Shown here piece by piece: positions 2,753-21,488 of a stretch of 21,782 bases of DNA; within the stretch, counting starts at the first letter, position 1, and each line of letters starts with the position of its first letter. Both the position numbers and the translations under genes were made by a program. The DNA is taken from the IMG/VR virus record IMGVR_UViG_3300030406_002141, positions 1 to 21,782 of that record. One strand, given 5' to 3'. This DNA is from a virus. The notes below the pieces were generated by a model. The model did no database searches. It worked only from the letters and a program-made list of their open reading frames with translations, and was not told the origin of the DNA.

Positions 2753-3039
2753 TGATAAAAAGAAAAGACGTACTAGAACGAGCAGGTGATCTAATATCTA
2801 GCGAACGAGCTACGATATACGGAGACGCACAATTAAACCATGAGCGTATCGCACAGTTTTGGTCAGTAATATTAGAACAAAAGATTACAGTAGAACAAGT
2901 GTACCAGTGCATGATTGCCGTAAAGATGTCAAGGTTGATCAACTCCCCCAAACATTTAGATTCATGGGTCGATATTGTCGGCTATGCTGCCCTTGCAGGA
3001 GAAGATAACGAATGGGGGGAAGAAGATGGCGAAGGATAG
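2752..3039 (+). CDS. DUF6378 family small phage protein
   Basis: This is a 95-residue protein of unknown function. It matches my knowledge of the DUF6378 family of phage and prophage proteins: an N-terminal helix, then RATIYGDAQLNH (19-30), a middle FWSVIL, a conserved basic patch AVKMSRL (56-62) and a C-terminal DSWVDIVGYAALAGE (70-84). The acidic tail follows the family core. The pattern of paired helices with acidic residues recalls all-alpha nucleotide pyrophosphohydrolases such as MazG, but I do not see the ExxE/ExxD metal motif clearly enough to claim that activity. Its ATG overlaps the helicase stop (TAATG), and its 3' end overlaps the polymerase start by 14 bases, so it is made together with the replication enzymes. 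A role in nucleotide supply or replication is a guess from context. Confidence 0.8.
   Translation: MIKRKDVLERAGDLISSERATIYGDAQLNHERIAQFWSVILEQKITVEQVYQCMIAVKMSRLINSPKHLDSWVDIVGYAALAGEDNEWGEEDGEG
3014..3020 (+). promoter_or_regulatory. Ribosome-binding site that decides the polymerase start
   Basis: GGGGGGA lies five bases before the ATG at 3026. An in-frame ATG also exists at 2975, but it is deep inside the DUF6378 gene and would add 17 residues. The purine-rich site therefore favours 3026. The site is itself inside the coding sequence of the DUF6378 protein. Confidence 0.65.
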
Positions 3040-4930
3040 AAAAGATAGCAGTACTATAAGTTTTGAAGAACGCATGATGATGGACACTCTAGACGTTAAC
3101 TGGAATATACCACCAGAGTTTCCAGACCTAACAAACTGTAGACAGATAGCCGTAGACTTGGAAACTAGAGATCCAAACATACGGGACAAAGGTCCAGGGT
3201 GGGCACGAAAAGACGGAGAGATTATAGGTATCGCCATAGCCACGGGGGACTACCAAGGGTACTTTCCGATTCGACATGCTAATGGTCATAATCTTGATCC
3301 TAAAATGACCTTGAAATGGTTTAAAGATCAGATGAACACCCCTCACATAGATAAGATTATGCACAATGCAACGTATGACGCGGGATGGCTAAGAGCCGAG
3401 GGCATTGAGATTAAGGGCACGATCATAGATACAATGGTTGCTGCTCCCTTGGTCAACGAGAATAGATTCAGTTACAGCCTAAACAATCTTGGTCGGGACT
3501 ACATAGACATGCGTAAGGACGAGAAGATGTTACGAGCTGCGGCAAAAGATTTTGGTATAGATCCCAAGAGCGAGATGTGGCGACTACCTCCAAAGTTTGT
3601 AGGACCTTATGCTGAACAAGATGCACTCATGACACTGAAATTATGGGACAGATTGCGTATAGAAATAGATATGCAGGAACTAAATACGGTCTTTGGGTTA
3701 GAGACAAAACTTATACCTATCTTACTTGATATGAGAACAAAGGGTGTCCGAGTTGACCTTGACAAAGCAGAACAAGCCAAGCAAACACTCAAGGCTCGTA
3801 TAGTAAAACTAAAAAAGTTTATAAAAGACAAAACGTCCGTGGATATAGAACCGTGGGCAAATGCGTCCGTAGAGAGCGTATTTAAGGCACTGAACCTTAA
3901 CTATCCCAAAACAGAACTTGGAGCACCTTCTTTTACAAAACAGTTCCTACTAGCTCATCCTCATGAAGTTGCCCAGGCTATTGTTAAACTACGCGAGGCA
4001 GATAAAGCCGATAGCACTTTTATTGACAGCATACTTAAACATGAATATAAGGGACGGATTCACTGTGAGTTCCATCAATTGAGATCCGATGATGGGGGGA
4101 CTGTCACGGGTAGGTTCTCGTCGTCGAATCCAAATCTACAACAGATACCTGCTCGTGATCCAGAGATTAAGAAACTAATCCGTGGCTTATTTATACCCGA
4201 AGAGGGACAGAAGTGGGGTAGCTTTGATTACTCTTCCCAAGAGCCAAGGCTACTGGTGCATTACTGTTCGGTCTTAGGAAGACATGATAGACACCCCATG
4301 ATTGATGAAGTGATCGAGGAGTATCACAAGGGGGACGCTGACTTCCATCAAATGGTTGCTGATTTAGCAGGTATTTCCAGAAAAGAAGCAAAAACTGTAA
4401 ATTTAGGAATTATGTATGGGATGGGCGTTGCAAAGCTAGGTGCTCAACTAAGCCTTAGTACAGAGGAAGCAAAATCTTTAATGACAAAGTATCATGAGCG
4501 TGTTCCTTTTGTTAAGCTTCTTGCTGACAGAGTTATGCAAAGGGCAGCTGACAACGGTAAAATTAGAACAATAGCGGGTCGATTATGTCGGTTTGATTTA
4601 TGGGAGCCTAAGACTTTTGGATATAATAAGCCTATGAAACATGAGGATGCAGAGAGGGAGTACGGGCCGCAAATCCGTAGGGCATTTACATACAAGGCAC
4701 TTAACAAACTAATCCAAGGTTCGGCAGCTGACCAAACAAAGAAGGCGATGGTGGATTGCTACGATGAAGGTCTTGTGCCATTGATTACAGTGCATGATGA
4801 ATTGTGCTTTTCTGTTGAAAGCGATATACAAGCACAGAAGATTAAGAATATAATGGAGACGGGATTAGAGTTAGCTGTACCAAGTAAAGTTGACCAAGAT
4901 ATTCAGTTGAATTGGGGAGATGTCGAATGA
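3026..4930 (+). CDS. polA: Family A DNA polymerase with 3'-5' exonuclease domain
   Basis: This is the phage replicative DNA polymerase, related to bacterial Pol I and T7 gp5. The 634-residue protein has a proofreading domain with Exo I (D44 and E46 in VDLET), Exo II (N114 to D118 in HNATYD) and Exo III (Y195 to D199 in YAEQD). The polymerase domain shows TGRFSSSNPNLQQIP (361-375), motif A DYSSQEPR with catalytic D401, motif B with R452, K456 and Y464, and motif C HDE (590-592). No 5'-nuclease domain is present, which is normal for phage enzymes. The residue equivalent to E. coli Phe762 is Leu460. The start at 3026 is chosen over 2975 because of the purine-rich site before it. The stop shares ATGA with the next gene. 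The family and proofreading activity are secure. Confidence 0.96.
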   Translation: MAKDRKDSSTISFEERMMMDTLDVNWNIPPEFPDLTNCRQIAVDLETRDPNIRDKGPGWARKDGEIIGIAIATGDYQGYFPIRHANGHNLDPKMTLKWFKDQMNTPHIDKIMHNATYDAGWLRAEGIEIKGTIIDTMVAAPLVNENRFSYSLNNLGRDYIDMRKDEKMLRAAAKDFGIDPKSEMWRLPPKFVGPYAEQDALMTLKLWDRLRIEIDMQELNTVFGLETKLIPILLDMRTKGVRVDLDKAEQAKQTLKARIVKLKKFIKDKTSVDIEPWANASVESVFKALNLNYPKTELGAPSFTKQFLLAHPHEVAQAIVKLREADKADSTFIDSILKHEYKGRIHCEFHQLRSDDGGTVTGRFSSSNPNLQQIPARDPEIKKLIRGLFIPEEGQKWGSFDYSSQEPRLLVHYCSVLGRHDRHPMIDEVIEEYHKGDADFHQMVADLAGISRKEAKTVNLGIMYGMGVAKLGAQLSLSTEEAKSLMTKYHERVPFVKLLADRVMQRAADNGKIRTIAGRLCRFDLWEPKTFGYNKPMKHEDAEREYGPQIRRAFTYKALNKLIQGSAADQTKKAMVDCYDEGLVPLITVHDELCFSVESDIQAQKIKNIMETGLELAVPSKVDQDIQLNWGDVE

Positions 4931-5745
4931 AGTTAAGTGAACCACATAGTAATCCAGACGTAAGGATTATAAGCTTGGGGGCAGGTGTGCAAAGTACAGT
5001 TATGGCTCTAATGGCAGCAAAAGGTGAATTAGATCCAATGCCCGATTGTGCTATATTTGCTGACACGGGATATGAGCCTCAAGGTGTATACGATCATCTT
5101 GAATGGTTAGAGAAACAATTGCCCTTTCCAACATACAGAGTTAGTAGCGGTAATATAAAATCGGATATACAAAAGGGTGTAAACACCACTGGAACTCGTT
5201 TTGTAGCCATGCCCTTCTTTACCAGAGAGGGCGGTATGGGTATGCGTCAATGCACAAATGAATACAAGATTGTGCCTCTGAAGAAAAAAACTAGAGAACT
5301 TCTTGGTCTTAAACCAAGACAAAGAGCCAAGGACGAAGTGTCGGAAACATGGCTTGGTATTTCATGGGACGAGATGCAAAGAATGAAAGAAAGCCGAGAC
5401 AAGTTTATTTACCACAGATTTCCATTAATAGAAAAACAAATGCGTAGACATCATTGCATGACGTGGTTTGAGGAGCACTACCCTGGTAGGTCACTAGCAA
5501 AAAGTGCATGTATTGCGTGTCCCTTCCATAGTAACGACTTATGGAGAGACATGAAGATTAATGATCCAGAGTCTTTTCAAGATGCTATAGAGTTTGATAG
5601 AGATATAAGGAAACTACCTACCTTTGAACAAGAACAATATGTTCATAGGTCATGTAAGCCTTTAGATGAGGTAGATTTTGAGAACGCAGAAGATAAAGGA
5701 CAGCTATCGTTTCTTGATGAATGCGATGGTATGTGTGGCGTTTAA
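4927..5745 (+). CDS. PP-loop ATPase, PAPS reductase-like superfamily
   Basis: This 272-residue protein belongs to the adenine nucleotide alpha-hydrolase fold, the superfamily of PAPS reductases, TtcA-like thiolases and DndC. The phosphate-binding loop is SLGAGVQS (16-23), followed by ADTGYEP (45-51), which matches the second strand of the family. Four cysteines, C109 (MRQCTNEYK), C177 (HHC), and C195 and C198 (CIACPF), are spaced as if to hold an Fe-S cluster or zinc. The tail ends CDGMCGV. A true sulfate-assimilation PAPS reductase is possible, but the extra cysteines fit a sulfur-transfer or nucleic-acid-modifying enzyme at least as well; the sequence does not decide. The start at 4927 overlaps the polymerase stop as ATGA and is preferred over the upstream ATG at 4912. 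It is the last gene of the plus-strand module. Confidence 0.82.
   Translation: MKLSEPHSNPDVRIISLGAGVQSTVMALMAAKGELDPMPDCAIFADTGYEPQGVYDHLEWLEKQLPFPTYRVSSGNIKSDIQKGVNTTGTRFVAMPFFTREGGMGMRQCTNEYKIVPLKKKTRELLGLKPRQRAKDEVSETWLGISWDEMQRMKESRDKFIYHRFPLIEKQMRRHHCMTWFEEHYPGRSLAKSACIACPFHSNDLWRDMKINDPESFQDAIEFDRDIRKLPTFEQEQYVHRSCKPLDEVDFENAEDKGQLSFLDECDGMCGV
5742..5745. other. Convergent overlapping stop codons (TTAA)
   Basis: The plus-strand PP-loop gene ends with TAA at 5743-5745, and the minus-strand 1122-residue gene ends with TAA read from 5744-5742. The two stops share TTAA. There is no intergenic space, so any transcription terminator between the replication and virion modules would have to lie inside a coding sequence. 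I saw no strong hairpin with a U-run close by. Confidence 0.9.
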
Positions 5746-17762: not shown

Positions 17763-18806
17763 CTATAACTCCGCTTCTGCTTCAAATCCGTCATTAAAAT
17801 ACCAATAACCATCAGCACTATCAATAGTAACAAGTCCACCAACATGAAGTTTATTAACATTCACAAATTGAAAATTAGACCAATTATAAGCAGTGCCAAC
17901 CTCTATTTTTGTACAAGACGGCCCTGTTCGCATTTCCACAGGTAGAACTGCGGAAAATGCACAATTATTATAAAGAGCATCTCTATTACCAGAACCTCTT
18001 GTTCTGGCAACTGTCATAAAATACCTTTGACACTTAGCCAATGTCCTCTCAAAAGGCTCATGCTCAAAACTCGTTGGGTTCTGCCCTACTTCTAACTGAA
18101 CACCTGTGATGAAGAAGGTTCTATCTGTGCTGTCAAAGAATGAAGTTTGACTATCTGAAAGTCTTGTTGTGTTTGATATAGACTCCCAAGTGTTTGCTGA
18201 AAACGTGCCACTTGTAAAGTTTGATCCACCATGTAAAAATATATTTAAAGACAACGACAAAGCGTTGTCGTCATCAAACGCACCTGTTGTATCTTTTGGA
18301 AAAGATAACTCTACTCTTGCCCAATCTGTAGTGACAGAAAACTCTTTAGCCACTCTTCTTGAGTTGTCGCCATCCTCTAGCTCACAAGTATATGTAGCAG
18401 AAGCGTTGCCCTTTACATAAAAAGATACAGCGTATGGTTTTGCACTTGTTGTTCCTTTAGCAAACATCTGTAGGTTTTGACCTTCTATCCTTTGTTGTAG
18501 AGAAAGTAACTCATCCGCAGCAATAGATGTGTCTGCCGTAGTGCAAGATAATTTTAAAGAGTTAGCAAAACCCTCTGGTGCGGAGCCATCTTGTACCATA
18601 GTAAATCGCCCTGCTGAAGTACCACCAATGTTCATTCTAAATCTATCAAGTGTTTGATAGCCTGGGTCACTGCTACCCAATCCTGTTTCTGATGTGCTTC
18701 TCTGTGCCACATTCATCGCACCATTAATGATGACATTCCTGTTTACTCCACCACCCCCTGCGTTGATGTTGCCTATAAGGTTTGCTAAGTCTGCTGCTTT
18801 GCTCAT
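17763..18806 (-). CDS. Tail fibre or receptor-binding protein with jelly-roll-like core
   Basis: This 347-residue protein has the architecture of phage tail-fibre and host-recognition proteins: an N-terminal anchor (MSKAADLANLIGN), then VNRNVIINGAMNVAQRST (21-38), then GYQTLDRFR (49-57), then a beta-sandwich region (about 60-245) resembling carbohydrate-binding modules, ending FFITGVQLEVGQNPTSFEHEPF (231-252), and a conserved CQRYF (259-263). The last 85 residues are variable and probably form the tip. Families with the NRNxIINGxM...DRxR...QLExG...FExRP...CQRY signature occur in many phage tails, and I assign this by that signature. The gene overlaps the preceding paralogue by four bases (ATGA). 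Glycan binding is inferred. Confidence 0.78.
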   Translation of the reverse strand: MSKAADLANLIGNINAGGGGVNRNVIINGAMNVAQRSTSETGLGSSDPGYQTLDRFRMNIGGTSAGRFTMVQDGSAPEGFANSLKLSCTTADTSIAADELLSLQQRIEGQNLQMFAKGTTSAKPYAVSFYVKGNASATYTCELEDGDNSRRVAKEFSVTTDWARVELSFPKDTTGAFDDDNALSLSLNIFLHGGSNFTSGTFSANTWESISNTTRLSDSQTSFFDSTDRTFFITGVQLEVGQNPTSFEHEPFERTLAKCQRYFMTVARTRGSGNRDALYNNCAFSAVLPVEMRTGPSCTKIEVGTAYNWSNFQFVNVNKLHVGGLVTIDSADGYWYFNDGFEAEAEL

Positions 18807-19189
18807 GCTAGGTCTCCTGTGAGATGAAAATATACTCTACCATCTTGGTTTGATAAAGAGTCAGTCCTTGAAAGTAAAAACTGTTGTATCACACTTGTTG
18901 TTGGTGTACCAAAACCATCGTTTTCAGCGTACTGAGAGCCACCAGTAGGGCAACTGCTTGTGCTGTTCATATTGTTTGTTAGAGTGTTCTGATAATTACC
19001 TGTACCTCCATCAGCTTGACTTGACACATTAAAGGAGTCCTCTACAGTTGCAGGTTGACTTGAAACAGACCATGCCTTACACAACCCCTGTTGCAGATTA
19101 GTCGTGGTGCTATTACCTTCGCCTGTCACAGCGATTGACCCTGCTGTGCTGACACCTGTTAATGTATTTATTTTAAGTGTCGATGCCAT
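18803..19189 (-). CDS. Tandem fibre paralogue 3 (128 residues)
   Basis: This is the last of three adjacent homologous genes. It opens MASTLKINTL and continues GEGNSTTTNLQQGLCKAW (23-40), then EDSFNVSSQADGGTG (50-64) and TLTNNMN (69-75), and ends HLTGDLA. The block GEG.(S/T)TTT.(L/V)QQGL.K.W and DSFN is shared with both neighbours. It is the shortest of the three. The start shares TAATG with the preceding stop, and GGAG in the conserved GDLA codons upstream acts as its ribosome-binding site. A structural role at the tail tip or fibre is inferred from the neighbours; the family itself is not named. Confidence 0.75.
   Translation of the reverse strand: MASTLKINTLTGVSTAGSIAVTGEGNSTTTNLQQGLCKAWSVSSQPATVEDSFNVSSQADGGTGNYQNTLTNNMNSTSSCPTGGSQYAENDGFGTPTTSVIQQFLLSRTDSLSNQDGRVYFHLTGDLA
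19086..19102 (-). repeat. 17-base identity between paralogues 3 and 1
   Basis: This sequence, coding the conserved TNLQQG part, is identical to bases 20002-20018 in paralogue 1. The flanking bases are also similar. It supports shared origin or recombination between these genes. Confidence 0.75.
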
Positions 19190-19203
19190 TATGCTAAATC
19201 TCC
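19184..19203 (-). repeat. 20-base junction repeat, copy 1
   Basis: The minus-strand sequence codes GDLA-stop and the start of the next gene, and includes GGAG as the ribosome-binding site. It is identical over 20 bases to copy 2 at 19684-19703, exactly 500 bases away. A related but diverged version lies at the 347-residue gene start (18804-18817). Confidence 0.85.
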
Positions 19204-19689
19204 ACTACATTGACAAAACGCAGAATCAGTATCTACATAACTCTGTGATGCACCACCATAAGGCATATTAGTAGATGTTATACGATATGTGCTTGTTGTG
19301 TGTTCATTAACTCTACAACCTATAATATAATCAACATCTCTACCACCTTGCGTAGTAACACTAAATTTATCGTTACCCATATTATTAGTAAAATTCACAT
19401 ATACTTTTCCTGTGCTTTGATCGGTGAAACTTGCTGTATTGAAAGAATCTCTAGCAGAAGGAGTACTTCTTTGGTCAAAGTTTACCCAGTTTTTTAATAA
19501 TCCTTGTTGAACACTCGTAGTAGTCGTACCACCCTCTCCAACGATAGTGGTCTGTCCTGTGGAGTTCATGGTTAGCTTTGTAGCATTGGCTACCTTCAGC
19601 AATATCTGGTCATTAGTCGCAAGATCAATACCAGTGTCATTATCTCCCCCTGCATTGACGATTGTATCTACTTTAATTTCACTTGCCAT
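19189..19689 (-). CDS. Tandem fibre paralogue 2 (166 residues)
   Basis: This is the middle of three homologous genes. It starts MASEIKVDTIVNAGGDNDTG and, unlike its siblings, carries an extra strand region, LLKVANATKLTMNSTGQ (31-47), of a kind seen in many fibre stems. Next come VGEGGTTTTSVQQGLLKNW (50-68), RDSFNTASFTDQSTG (79-93) and FTNNMGN (99-105), and it ends CQCSGDLA. Cysteines are clustered near the C-terminus. Its coding sequence is bounded on both sides by an identical 20-base sequence that spans stop, start and ribosome-binding site, so the gene could be lost or duplicated cleanly. The function is inferred as a fibre or tail-tip component. Confidence 0.75.
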   Translation of the reverse strand: MASEIKVDTIVNAGGDNDTGIDLATNDQILLKVANATKLTMNSTGQTTIVGEGGTTTTSVQQGLLKNWVNFDQRSTPSARDSFNTASFTDQSTGKVYVNFTNNMGNDKFSVTTQGGRDVDYIIGCRVNEHTTSTYRITSTNMPYGGASQSYVDTDSAFCQCSGDLA

Positions 19690-19703
19690 TATGCTAAATC
19701 TCC
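19684..19703 (-). repeat. 20-base junction repeat, copy 2
   Basis: Identical to copy 1 at 19184-19203. It spans the conserved GDLA codons, the TAATG stop-start overlap and the first bases of the 166-residue gene. The two copies bracket that gene precisely. Confidence 0.85.
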
Positions 19704-20105
19704 GTGTACTGTAAAAGAAGCTTCTAAATACTCATCTGCACTACCGTTATCTTCTTTAACATCAATTTGATAATTACTTGTAGTTTTATCAACATGACCT
19801 ATAATTTGTCCTTGTCCTCCATTATCACGCTCTCCCCCTCCTAAAGCAGAATAATCGTCATTACCCATACTGTTTGTAAAAGCTAAAGTTTGGTCACCTG
19901 TGCCGTTGTCTGTCAAACTAGCATGATTAAAACTATCTACTATGGTAGGGTCACCTCCACCATCTCCTGATGTTTGACAACCTGCCCAAGCCTTACATAA
20001 TCCCTGTTGCAGATTAGTAGTCGCAGATGTACCTTCACCCAAGACATTTATACTGCCACCTGTGGTGCTACCTTTTAAATTATCTACTCTAAGTTCACTT
20101 GTCAT
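19689..20105 (-). CDS. Tandem fibre paralogue 1 (138 residues)
   Basis: This is the first of three homologous genes. It starts MTSELRVDNLKGSTTGGSI, then GEGTSATTNLQQGLCKAW (23-40), VDSFNHASLTDNGTGD (56-71) and FTNSMGNDDYS (76-86), a Gly-rich turn (GGGERDNGGQGQ) and the ending FTVHGDLA. The start overlaps the previous stop as ATGA, with no clear Shine-Dalgarno sequence upstream, so it is probably made by translational coupling to the 154-residue gene. A surface or fibre role is inferred. Confidence 0.75.
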   Translation of the reverse strand: MTSELRVDNLKGSTTGGSINVLGEGTSATTNLQQGLCKAWAGCQTSGDGGGDPTIVDSFNHASLTDNGTGDQTLAFTNSMGNDDYSALGGGERDNGGQGQIIGHVDKTTSNYQIDVKEDNGSADEYLEASFTVHGDLA

Positions 20106-20566
20106 AATATTGTATAAAATCCATTAACTGTTAGCGTTGCTGATGCACCGACTGTAATAGGTCCTGCTGATAGGGCATTGGTTGTACTACTGATTGTTAT
20201 GTCAGCACTGATAGTCTGCCCATTGGTTCGTATAATACTGTCATTACCTAAGAAGGGATAGCGTGTGTCTGATTCTGACTTGGTGTAGCTGTTAGCTATA
20301 CTAAACGCATCATATACCACTATCTCGACAACATCGTTGACGGATGCACCTGTAACTAAAACCACTGTTGTGCCTGTTGTGGATGTGTAGTCTGTGGCAG
20401 GGTTTAGTAATATTCCATTCTGATAGACATCGACATACTCACCATCTGCATATGTGAGTGTATTGGAATTAGCATCCGAACCACTAAAAGAAGTCTGACC
20501 TGCTGTGGCTTGGTATATAAACCGTGTTCTTACGCCTTGGTTTGGTGCTTTTCCTATATATGGCAT
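20102..20566 (-). CDS. Tail fibre-type protein, 154 residues
   Basis: This protein starts MPYIGKAPNQGVRTRFIY and then shows ATAGQTSFSG (20-29), YVDVYQNGILLNPATDYT (44-61) and DVVEIVVYDAF (77-87). This is a strand pattern common to N-terminal anchoring modules of fibre proteins in marine cyanophage- and pelagiphage-like genomes. The C-terminus has another familiar beta unit, LSAGPITVGASATLTV (132-147). At 154 residues the protein is only the anchor and a short unit, so a longer fibre may be assembled with the neighbouring gene products. The ATG at 20566 has AAGGAAG four bases upstream. It overlaps the next start by four bases (ATGA). Fibre membership is fairly secure; receptor binding is not shown. 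Confidence 0.82.
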   Translation of the reverse strand: MPYIGKAPNQGVRTRFIYQATAGQTSFSGSDANSNTLTYADGEYVDVYQNGILLNPATDYTSTTGTTVVLVTGASVNDVVEIVVYDAFSIANSYTKSESDTRYPFLGNDSIIRTNGQTISADITISSTTNALSAGPITVGASATLTVNGFYTIL

Positions 20567-20782: not shown

Positions 20783-20788
20783 TTCCTT
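20783..20788 (-). promoter_or_regulatory. Ribosome-binding site deciding the 64-residue start
   Basis: AAGGAA on the minus strand lies six bases before the ATG at 20776. It supports that start over the in-frame ATG at 20809. Confidence 0.65.
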
Positions 20789-21488
20789 ACACTGGGTTTC
20801 TAAAACCAAATAAACTCATGTGTGTTTTTGTGGCTGCATTACCAGACGCAGTGCTAATTACAAACCCTGTAAAAAAATCATCTGCCTGAGAGGAGTCATA
20901 CCTTCCAGCAGAAAATGTTCTTGTAAAACAATCATCAGAGGCTTCATATCCTACTAAATCTGATTGAATCCAAGGTCTGTAAACAGAACCTCTATCTGTG
21001 CTTGTTCCTCCCAATACTGGTGCAGTATGATTCCAAAAATTTATTTCTCCATGTATACCACCCACAAGATTAGAATATATCTGACTCCATAGTCTAATTG
21101 AAGAATCACCACTTGCTGTAGTTCTATCTAAGCTTGTTGAGTCAGAACGTAATCTATCCACTACCCAATAATAGTTTGTAGCAGTTGTGTAAGTATTTGT
21201 AGAATACAACCATTGAAAATTAATCGTATTATTATGGGAACCAGTTGCAGTAAAAAACCCAATAACTAACTTGTAATAAAGATAATCTGCTGAAAAACAA
21301 TTTCTAAATTCTATGTTACCAGTTGACTGATTGATGTCACCATCAGTCGCAGAAACTTTGTTTTCAATAAGTTCCCAACCTTGCATAGACTTTGCAATCT
21401 TTGGTTGTGTGACATTAACATCTGTTATTTTCGCAGTTGTTATATTTGCGTCAGTAATACCACCTGTTCTAACTCTGGTTAATGCCAT
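20787..21488 (-). CDS. Tail fibre or tail-tip protein, 233 residues
   Basis: The N-terminus has a repeated pattern, ITDANITTAKITDVNVTQPKIA (11-32), typical of fibre stems that form a short coiled or beta spiral. A GWELIENKVSA segment (37-47) then leads to a beta-rich domain (about 55-233) with aromatic-rich strands such as YYKLVIGFF and NFQWLY. This shape resembles the C-terminal receptor-contact domain of fibre proteins. Two cysteines are present in the domain. The ATG at 21488 has GAGGT six bases upstream. It follows the 87-residue protein by nine bases and is followed by the 64-residue gene after ten. Receptor binding is inferred. Confidence 0.75.
   Translation of the reverse strand: MALTRVRTGGITDANITTAKITDVNVTQPKIAKSMQGWELIENKVSATDGDINQSTGNIEFRNCFSADYLYYKLVIGFFTATGSHNNTINFQWLYSTNTYTTATNYYWVVDRLRSDSTSLDRTTASGDSSIRLWSQIYSNLVGGIHGEINFWNHTAPVLGGTSTDRGSVYRPWIQSDLVGYEASDDCFTRTFSAGRYDSSQADDFFTGFVISTASGNAATKTHMSLFGFRNPV

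Follow-up and report, generated by a model that had tools for sequence, protein, structure and literature searches.

Three paralogous open reading frames lie in tandem on the minus strand between positions 20105 and 18803 of the window, by which we mean the whole 21,782-nucleotide stretch of viral DNA analysed here. They encode proteins of 138, 166 and 128 amino acids, referred to below as slots D, E and F, and each overlaps the gene that follows it by TAATG or ATGA in the window sequence. The array is headed by a protein beginning MPYIG, the adaptor, and closed by the MSKAADLANL gene (Table 1), whose 347-aa product also resembles the Pfam family CBM_4_9 (E = 0.002, under the curated cut-off) and which comes after the three slots in related phages as well. 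All three slot proteins match the profile of phrog_11355, named "tail fiber protein" (E = 1e-12, 2e-14 and 1e-10 for D, E and F), and a search with slot D retrieves E and F at E = 3e-18 and 1e-16, so that the homology is not a matter of chance. In an alignment, the elements common to the three are an N-terminal stretch of about 32-60 residues, the framework of the domain and the terminal GDLA, and the rest diverges. The earlier note on this DNA had described three tandem paralogues with named shared motifs and a GDLA end, and the alignment, the phrog_11355 matches and the mutual retrieval bear this out. The set of three is real but incomplete: a fourth member, slot C, lies beyond the window on the same 22.7-kb record (22658-22260) and also has the GDLA ending, and a fifth is represented by its GDLA end upstream of slot C, on the same record and likewise beyond the window. 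An Rfam scan of the window gave no match.

Table 1. Genes and translation signals of the fibre array in the window.
Feature	Position	Strand	Parts and evidence
MPYIG adaptor, 154 aa, array head	20102..20566	-	ATGA overlap with slot D; matches phrog_18345 (tail fibre) at E = 1.3e-6
Slot D gene, 138 aa	19689..20105	-	Putative docking part at the N-terminus, 20010-20105; exchangeable cassette 20009 (QQGL) to 19692 (GDLA)
Slot E gene, 166 aa	19189..19689	-	N-terminal part 19510-19689, which contains a fibre-like insertion; cassette 19192-19509; AF2 model
Slot F gene, 128 aa	18803..19189	-	N-terminal part 19094-19189; cassette 18806-19093; AF2 model
GGAG within the slot D GDLA codons, Shine-Dalgarno for slot E (GGAGATTTAGCATAATG)	19700..19703	-	Sequence; codon and context tests
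GGAG within the slot E GDLA codons, Shine-Dalgarno for slot F (GGAGATTTAGCATAATG)	19200..19203	-	Sequence; codon and context tests
GGAG within the slot F GDLA codons, Shine-Dalgarno for the 347-aa gene (GGAGACCTAGCATGA)	18814..18817	-	Sequence; codon and context tests
Array-closing gene MSKAADLANL, 347 aa, tail-fibre protein	17763..18806	-	phrog_4492, E = 1.3e-44

The fibre genes of the window, itself a fragment of a marine phage, resemble those of HMO-2011, an isolated Puniceispirillum phage. The window's adaptor is 70% identical over the full length to an HMO-2011 protein and the fibre gene order is the same: HMO-2011 gp28-gp43 follow the same plan of an MPYIG protein, small GDLA-ended fibre genes and a closing gene, and gp40, gp37, gp34, gp32 and gp29 carry the GDLA end with an overlap, as in the window. 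HMO-2011 differs in that a C1q tip or another kind of tip, accompanied by a Phage_tail_APC partner, occupies some of its slots. Its record is annotated gene by gene only; to that extent the earlier statement that no such system was known has to be amended, although the logic of slots and cassettes set out below was not found described in papers. Judged by sequence similarity, the fibre module, which is HMO-2011-like, and the replication module, which is pelagiphage-like of the HTVC023P type, appear to have different affinities. The DNA polymerase gene at 2975-4930 (plus strand) finds its best matches in 023Pt_psg01, DSL-LC04, HTVC023P and HTVC027P at 49-54%, with HMO-2011 not among the best 12 of 4720, and the 277-aa protein encoded at 4912-5745 (plus strand) has, by eye, the look of the PAPS-reductase/adenine nucleotide alpha hydrolase family.

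About 160 loci with relatives were taken from IMG/VR, most of them on metagenomic contigs, and they contain two types of array. In the first, an MPYIG protein is followed by slots A, B and C and then by a TPEFQ protein; in the second, another MPYIG protein is followed by slots D, E and F and then by an MSKAA protein. Exactly three genes stand between adaptor and end gene in 24/28 chains of the A/B/C type and in 48/60 of the D/E/F type, some of the longer D/E/F-type chains being both arrays read through, and copy-number expansion was not seen in these 28 and 60 chains. The slots of a sister group, which carries other tip classes, are the same slots. The idea of an "expandable" set, put forward in the earlier note, thus finds no support in a near-constant number of slots, and it is their content that varies instead. 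The companion idea, that small single-domain proteins, candidates for receptor binding, stand in a row in place of one long fibre, is supported by CRP-1, CRP-2 and HTVC109P, where the MPYIG homologue sits inside a single long tail-fibre gene; a sister MPYIG protein also resembles PF03906, the N-terminus of the T7 fibre, at a level below threshold. All 96 of the 96 aligned slot proteins match phrog_11355, and 41 also match a section of phrog_3484, which is 818 residues long; the two families supply a name and no mechanism. Searches by tblastn against isolate phages gave no match for slot D and matched slot F to HMO-2011 only, and slot E as query gave no relative in a scan of a genome contig collection.

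The third slot of nearly every A/B/C-type array is followed by a protein of 152-153 residues (TPEFQGTHLWDRL, the TPEFQ protein; 1043-1501 in locus L002, just beyond the window, and 4998-5459 in L014). Sequence-family tools found no family match for the 152-aa protein, which is possibly an assembly factor. A run of ten N at 1024-1033 of L002, just past the window end, marks a scaffold gap within the small gene that follows the TPEFQ gene. On the other side of the D/E/F adaptor, the window encodes a 233-aa MALTRV protein (20787-21488, minus strand); in relatives the protein at this place opens with a conserved MALTKV, its body of 168 to 415 residues, sometimes with an S74 chaperone, is otherwise different, and the position has the look of an additional, single exchangeable slot.

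Comparison between phages separates each slot protein into two parts. Up to QQGL, the N-part has a median identity of 0.94-1.00 in slots B, C, D and F, 0.77 in A and 0.64 in E, and the C-terminal cassette has a median identity of 0.30-0.33 in all six slots. The nearest neighbour lies in the same slot for 124/124 N-parts, but for only 39/124 cassettes. Between phages, cassettes that occupy different slots form pairs of 97, 96, 93, 87 and 87% identity, and the window's own slot F cassette is found at 96% in slot D, the first slot, of locus L006. In nucleotide alignments of such swapped cassettes, identity starts abruptly at the QQGL codons and stops at GGAGAYYTAGCAT (GGAGA). Next to MPYIG genes that are 90-97% identical, the first-slot cassettes still fall short of 50% identity in 82/82 pairs. 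As read from these alignments, tips move between slots, and within a slot the N-part stays nearly invariant and the tip is replaced wholesale. The layout is confirmed by the isolate HMO-2011, and the slot swaps are known from contigs that are mostly metagenomic.

Vertical gene duplication followed by fast divergence, with no exchange from slot to slot, would account for the homologous N-part and domain found in all slots, and also for the fact that the 124 cassettes fall into 108 clusters at 70%, most of them with no close relative in the sample. We nonetheless consider it very improbable, since near-identical cassettes with sharp boundaries occur in different slots of different phages, and since complete replacement of the cassette is seen beside so closely conserved a neighbour gene. 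Duplication within a genome was rejected as the source of cassettes: pairs within a contig have a median identity of 0.31 and a maximum of 0.61, so that donors are more likely to be other phages.

A hypervariable C-terminal domain in a receptor-binding position, together with tyrosine recombinases in 6/13 large relatives and in HMO-2011, might be taken to indicate that a diversity-generating retroelement or a site-specific recombinase creates the variation, but we regard this as extremely improbable. A reverse transcriptase (PF00078) is present in 0/13 large relatives, the window's own record being a fragment, and the variation consists of wholesale replacement with change of length, not of adenine substitution. 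Site-specific exchange would need matching sites, whereas the two seams differ in sequence, and 7/13 large relatives have no above-threshold integrase. With no reverse transcriptase, integrase in a minority and seams unlike each other, homologous recombination is the simplest reading; cassettes would then be exchanged during co-infection, by phage homologous recombination at two short conserved seams. The T7-like endonuclease I encoded by HMO-2011 fits homologous recombination and is no proof of it.

The GDLA codons are GGA GAY YTA GCA, followed by TGA or TAATG, which puts GGAG at a distance of 7 or 10 nt from the ATG that follows, and it is GCA-TGA that creates the start/stop overlap. A TAATG or ATGA overlap with a Shine-Dalgarno GGAG at one of these two distances is found at 3/3 junctions in the window, and a start/stop overlap with the Shine-Dalgarno sequence inside the upstream coding end is found in 300/310 overlapping family members. 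Among 319 unique ends, glycine is encoded by GGA in 313 (background 32%) and alanine by GCA in 302 (background 47%), and the next ATG is overlapped in 313. When 485 open reading frames were picked by their domain and not by their end, a G[DE]LA end was found in 293/310 of those overlapped by the next gene and in 3/130 of those with the next gene more than 8 nt away (Fisher p about 1e-86, a value that overstates the number of independent events because the sequences share ancestry). The exceptions and a second cassette class weigh more than the exact p values. Exceptional ends alter the residues and keep GGAG, as in GALA, GGLA, GDSA, GSLA written as GGG-AGT, or FGD-stop with the ATG 3-4 nt further on; residues are likewise altered and GGAG kept in a Nostoc phage and a Vibrio phage. 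Where there is no overlapping next gene, the same domain ends in FR, FGD, FS and the like. In the second class, whose tips end in EIAQ, GGAG (as xxG-GAG) is present in 64/71 overlapping and 0/9 non-overlapping cases, and in the latter the Shine-Dalgarno sequence lies mostly at or after the stop.

On the strength of the codon bias, the dependence on overlap, the exceptions that keep GGAG and the EIAQ class, we interpret the shared GDLA C-terminus mainly as a translation signal and not as a protein signature. In other words, the common end noted earlier as a feature of the proteins is real, but it is conserved mainly at the nucleotide level, by the Shine-Dalgarno sequence embedded in it. Isolates with non-overlapping genes show that the domain itself does not need this device. 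The converse explanation, in which the protein needs GDLA for docking, folding or as a protease signal and the ribosome-binding site is a by-product, appears to us decidedly unlikely. It could draw on the dominance of GCA, although TAATG overlaps would permit other alanine codons, on the retention of glycine even in most exceptions and on the position of the end within the last predicted strand. Against it stand the near absence of GDLA from the domain where no next gene overlaps, the exceptions that hold GGAG at the expense of D, L or A, and the distinct cassette class in which other residues give the same pattern. Part of the constraint may still be structural, given the place of the end in that strand and the fact that glycine is nearly always kept and, in most exceptions, leucine and alanine too.

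Single-chain AF2 models of slot F (m66ed3ffe8fd1; pLDDT 78, with eight strands between residues 34 and 126) and slot E (m40cbfaa18d19; pLDDT 76, also eight strands) have confident cassettes with the same strand order and poorly ordered N-parts. Their best structural neighbours are the C-terminal domains of tailspikes (Pam1, phiAB6, LKA1), the fibre feet of R-pyocin and AP22, and H-type lectins, with Z scores of 4.9-8.4 (Pam1, phiAB6, R-pyocin, AP22, SLL-2, HPA), of which 4.9-7.0 belong to the R-pyocin and AP22 feet, and with a Foldseek E of 0.05 at best, which is not significant. As obtained from predicted models, the list is middling in score but consistent in kind. A sequence search of the PDB returned only weak, chance-like matches to titin and LRRC4B. 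The cassette is likely a discoidin-like or H-type-lectin-like eight-stranded beta-sandwich, and slot D is provisionally grouped with E and F on sequence grounds. Two further points in the earlier note are supported: the E and F cassettes have a predicted fold in common, and it is the outer domain that varies. The trimeric R-pyocin fibre ends in a foot that is a discoidin-like lectin domain, and the variable distal domain has been proposed to set specificity (PMC6363177). The R-pyocin foot and AP22 gp53 share the predicted beta-sandwich of the cassettes but form the end of one long fibre chain, whereas in the window the domain belongs to free-standing proteins of 128-166 aa, each with a putative docking part of its own, several to a phage. 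As far as the models go, the role of the cassette is likely to be sugar binding at the host surface.

The slots also accept tips of other kinds. An S74-chaperone fibre can occupy slot E of other phages, and slot A can be filled by a C1q tip together with its Phage_tail_APC partner; the sister group has C1q or EIAQ tips in its MASELH slot. Some C1q tips have a small Phage_tail_APC (PF16778) protein directly downstream and so make up a two-gene cassette (L017, L026 and HMO-2011 gp31/gp30, the last at 15165-15939 of L084), and in the sister group (L106-L148) the same slots carry tips ending in EIAQ or, for C1q, GxLxG. The EIAQ examples tested had no Pfam match. S74 and C1q domains are normally homotrimeric.

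These occupants bear on the quaternary structure of the array. According to the earlier note, D, E and F might form one heteromeric tip, that is a mixed trimer, or else a set of changing copy number. Three homologues in fixed order, probably coupled in translation and with a conserved N-part particular to each slot, would suit such an assembly, as would the common strand pattern of the E and F models. We judge it unlikely, because the number of slots is nearly constant, cassettes of about 30% mutual identity swap freely across slots, and S74-chaperone or C1q tips occur in the same slots. The presence of these normally homotrimeric domains leads us to favour separate homotrimers standing side by side over mixed trimers. 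Docking most likely resides in the N-parts, which are slot-specific and nearly invariant. We suggest that each product would form a homotrimer docked by its N-part near the MPYIG protein, that coupled translation would hold the tips in a near-fixed ratio, and that the set of tips would set the host range.

We think it highly probable that D, E and F are slots of a split tail fibre, each joining a slot-specific docking N-part to an exchangeable lectin-like tip that probably binds sugar and carries the ribosome-binding site of the next gene. Since the tip would bring with it the translation signal needed by its downstream neighbour, tips could move without breaking the operon. A broader proposal is tentative, and we hold it to be possible without considering it likely: that the two arrays of mostly three slots, drawing on a common pool of at least four tip classes, amount to a combinatorial receptor display, the junctions having been selected for exchangeability itself and not only for expression.

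Swapping of fibre tips and hypervariable recognition islands are already known (Smug et al., 2023, PMC10684548; metaviromic islands, PMC3909814). In the accessible parts of these papers, as here, a conserved N-terminal part is combined with an exchanged or highly variable C-terminal receptor domain, but the swaps and variability described there fall within single fibre, spike or receptor-binding protein genes, whereas in the present arrays a single pool supplies several slots, and each cassette brings the ribosome-binding site of the gene that follows. Our literature search, which mostly did not extend to subscription papers and so leaves absence unproven, found no description of multi-slot cassettes carrying the ribosome-binding site of the next gene. 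To our knowledge, slot-to-slot swapping of such cassettes is new.

The reading of the locus as slots and cassettes explains the extreme variability of these genes beside near-identical neighbours. It reduces the array to a defined code of slot tag, tip class and tip sequence, and leads to the prediction that up to six tips in combination make up the host range. The placement of the next gene's ribosome-binding site inside the exchangeable unit, in at least two tip classes, suggests how overlapping genes could stay modular.
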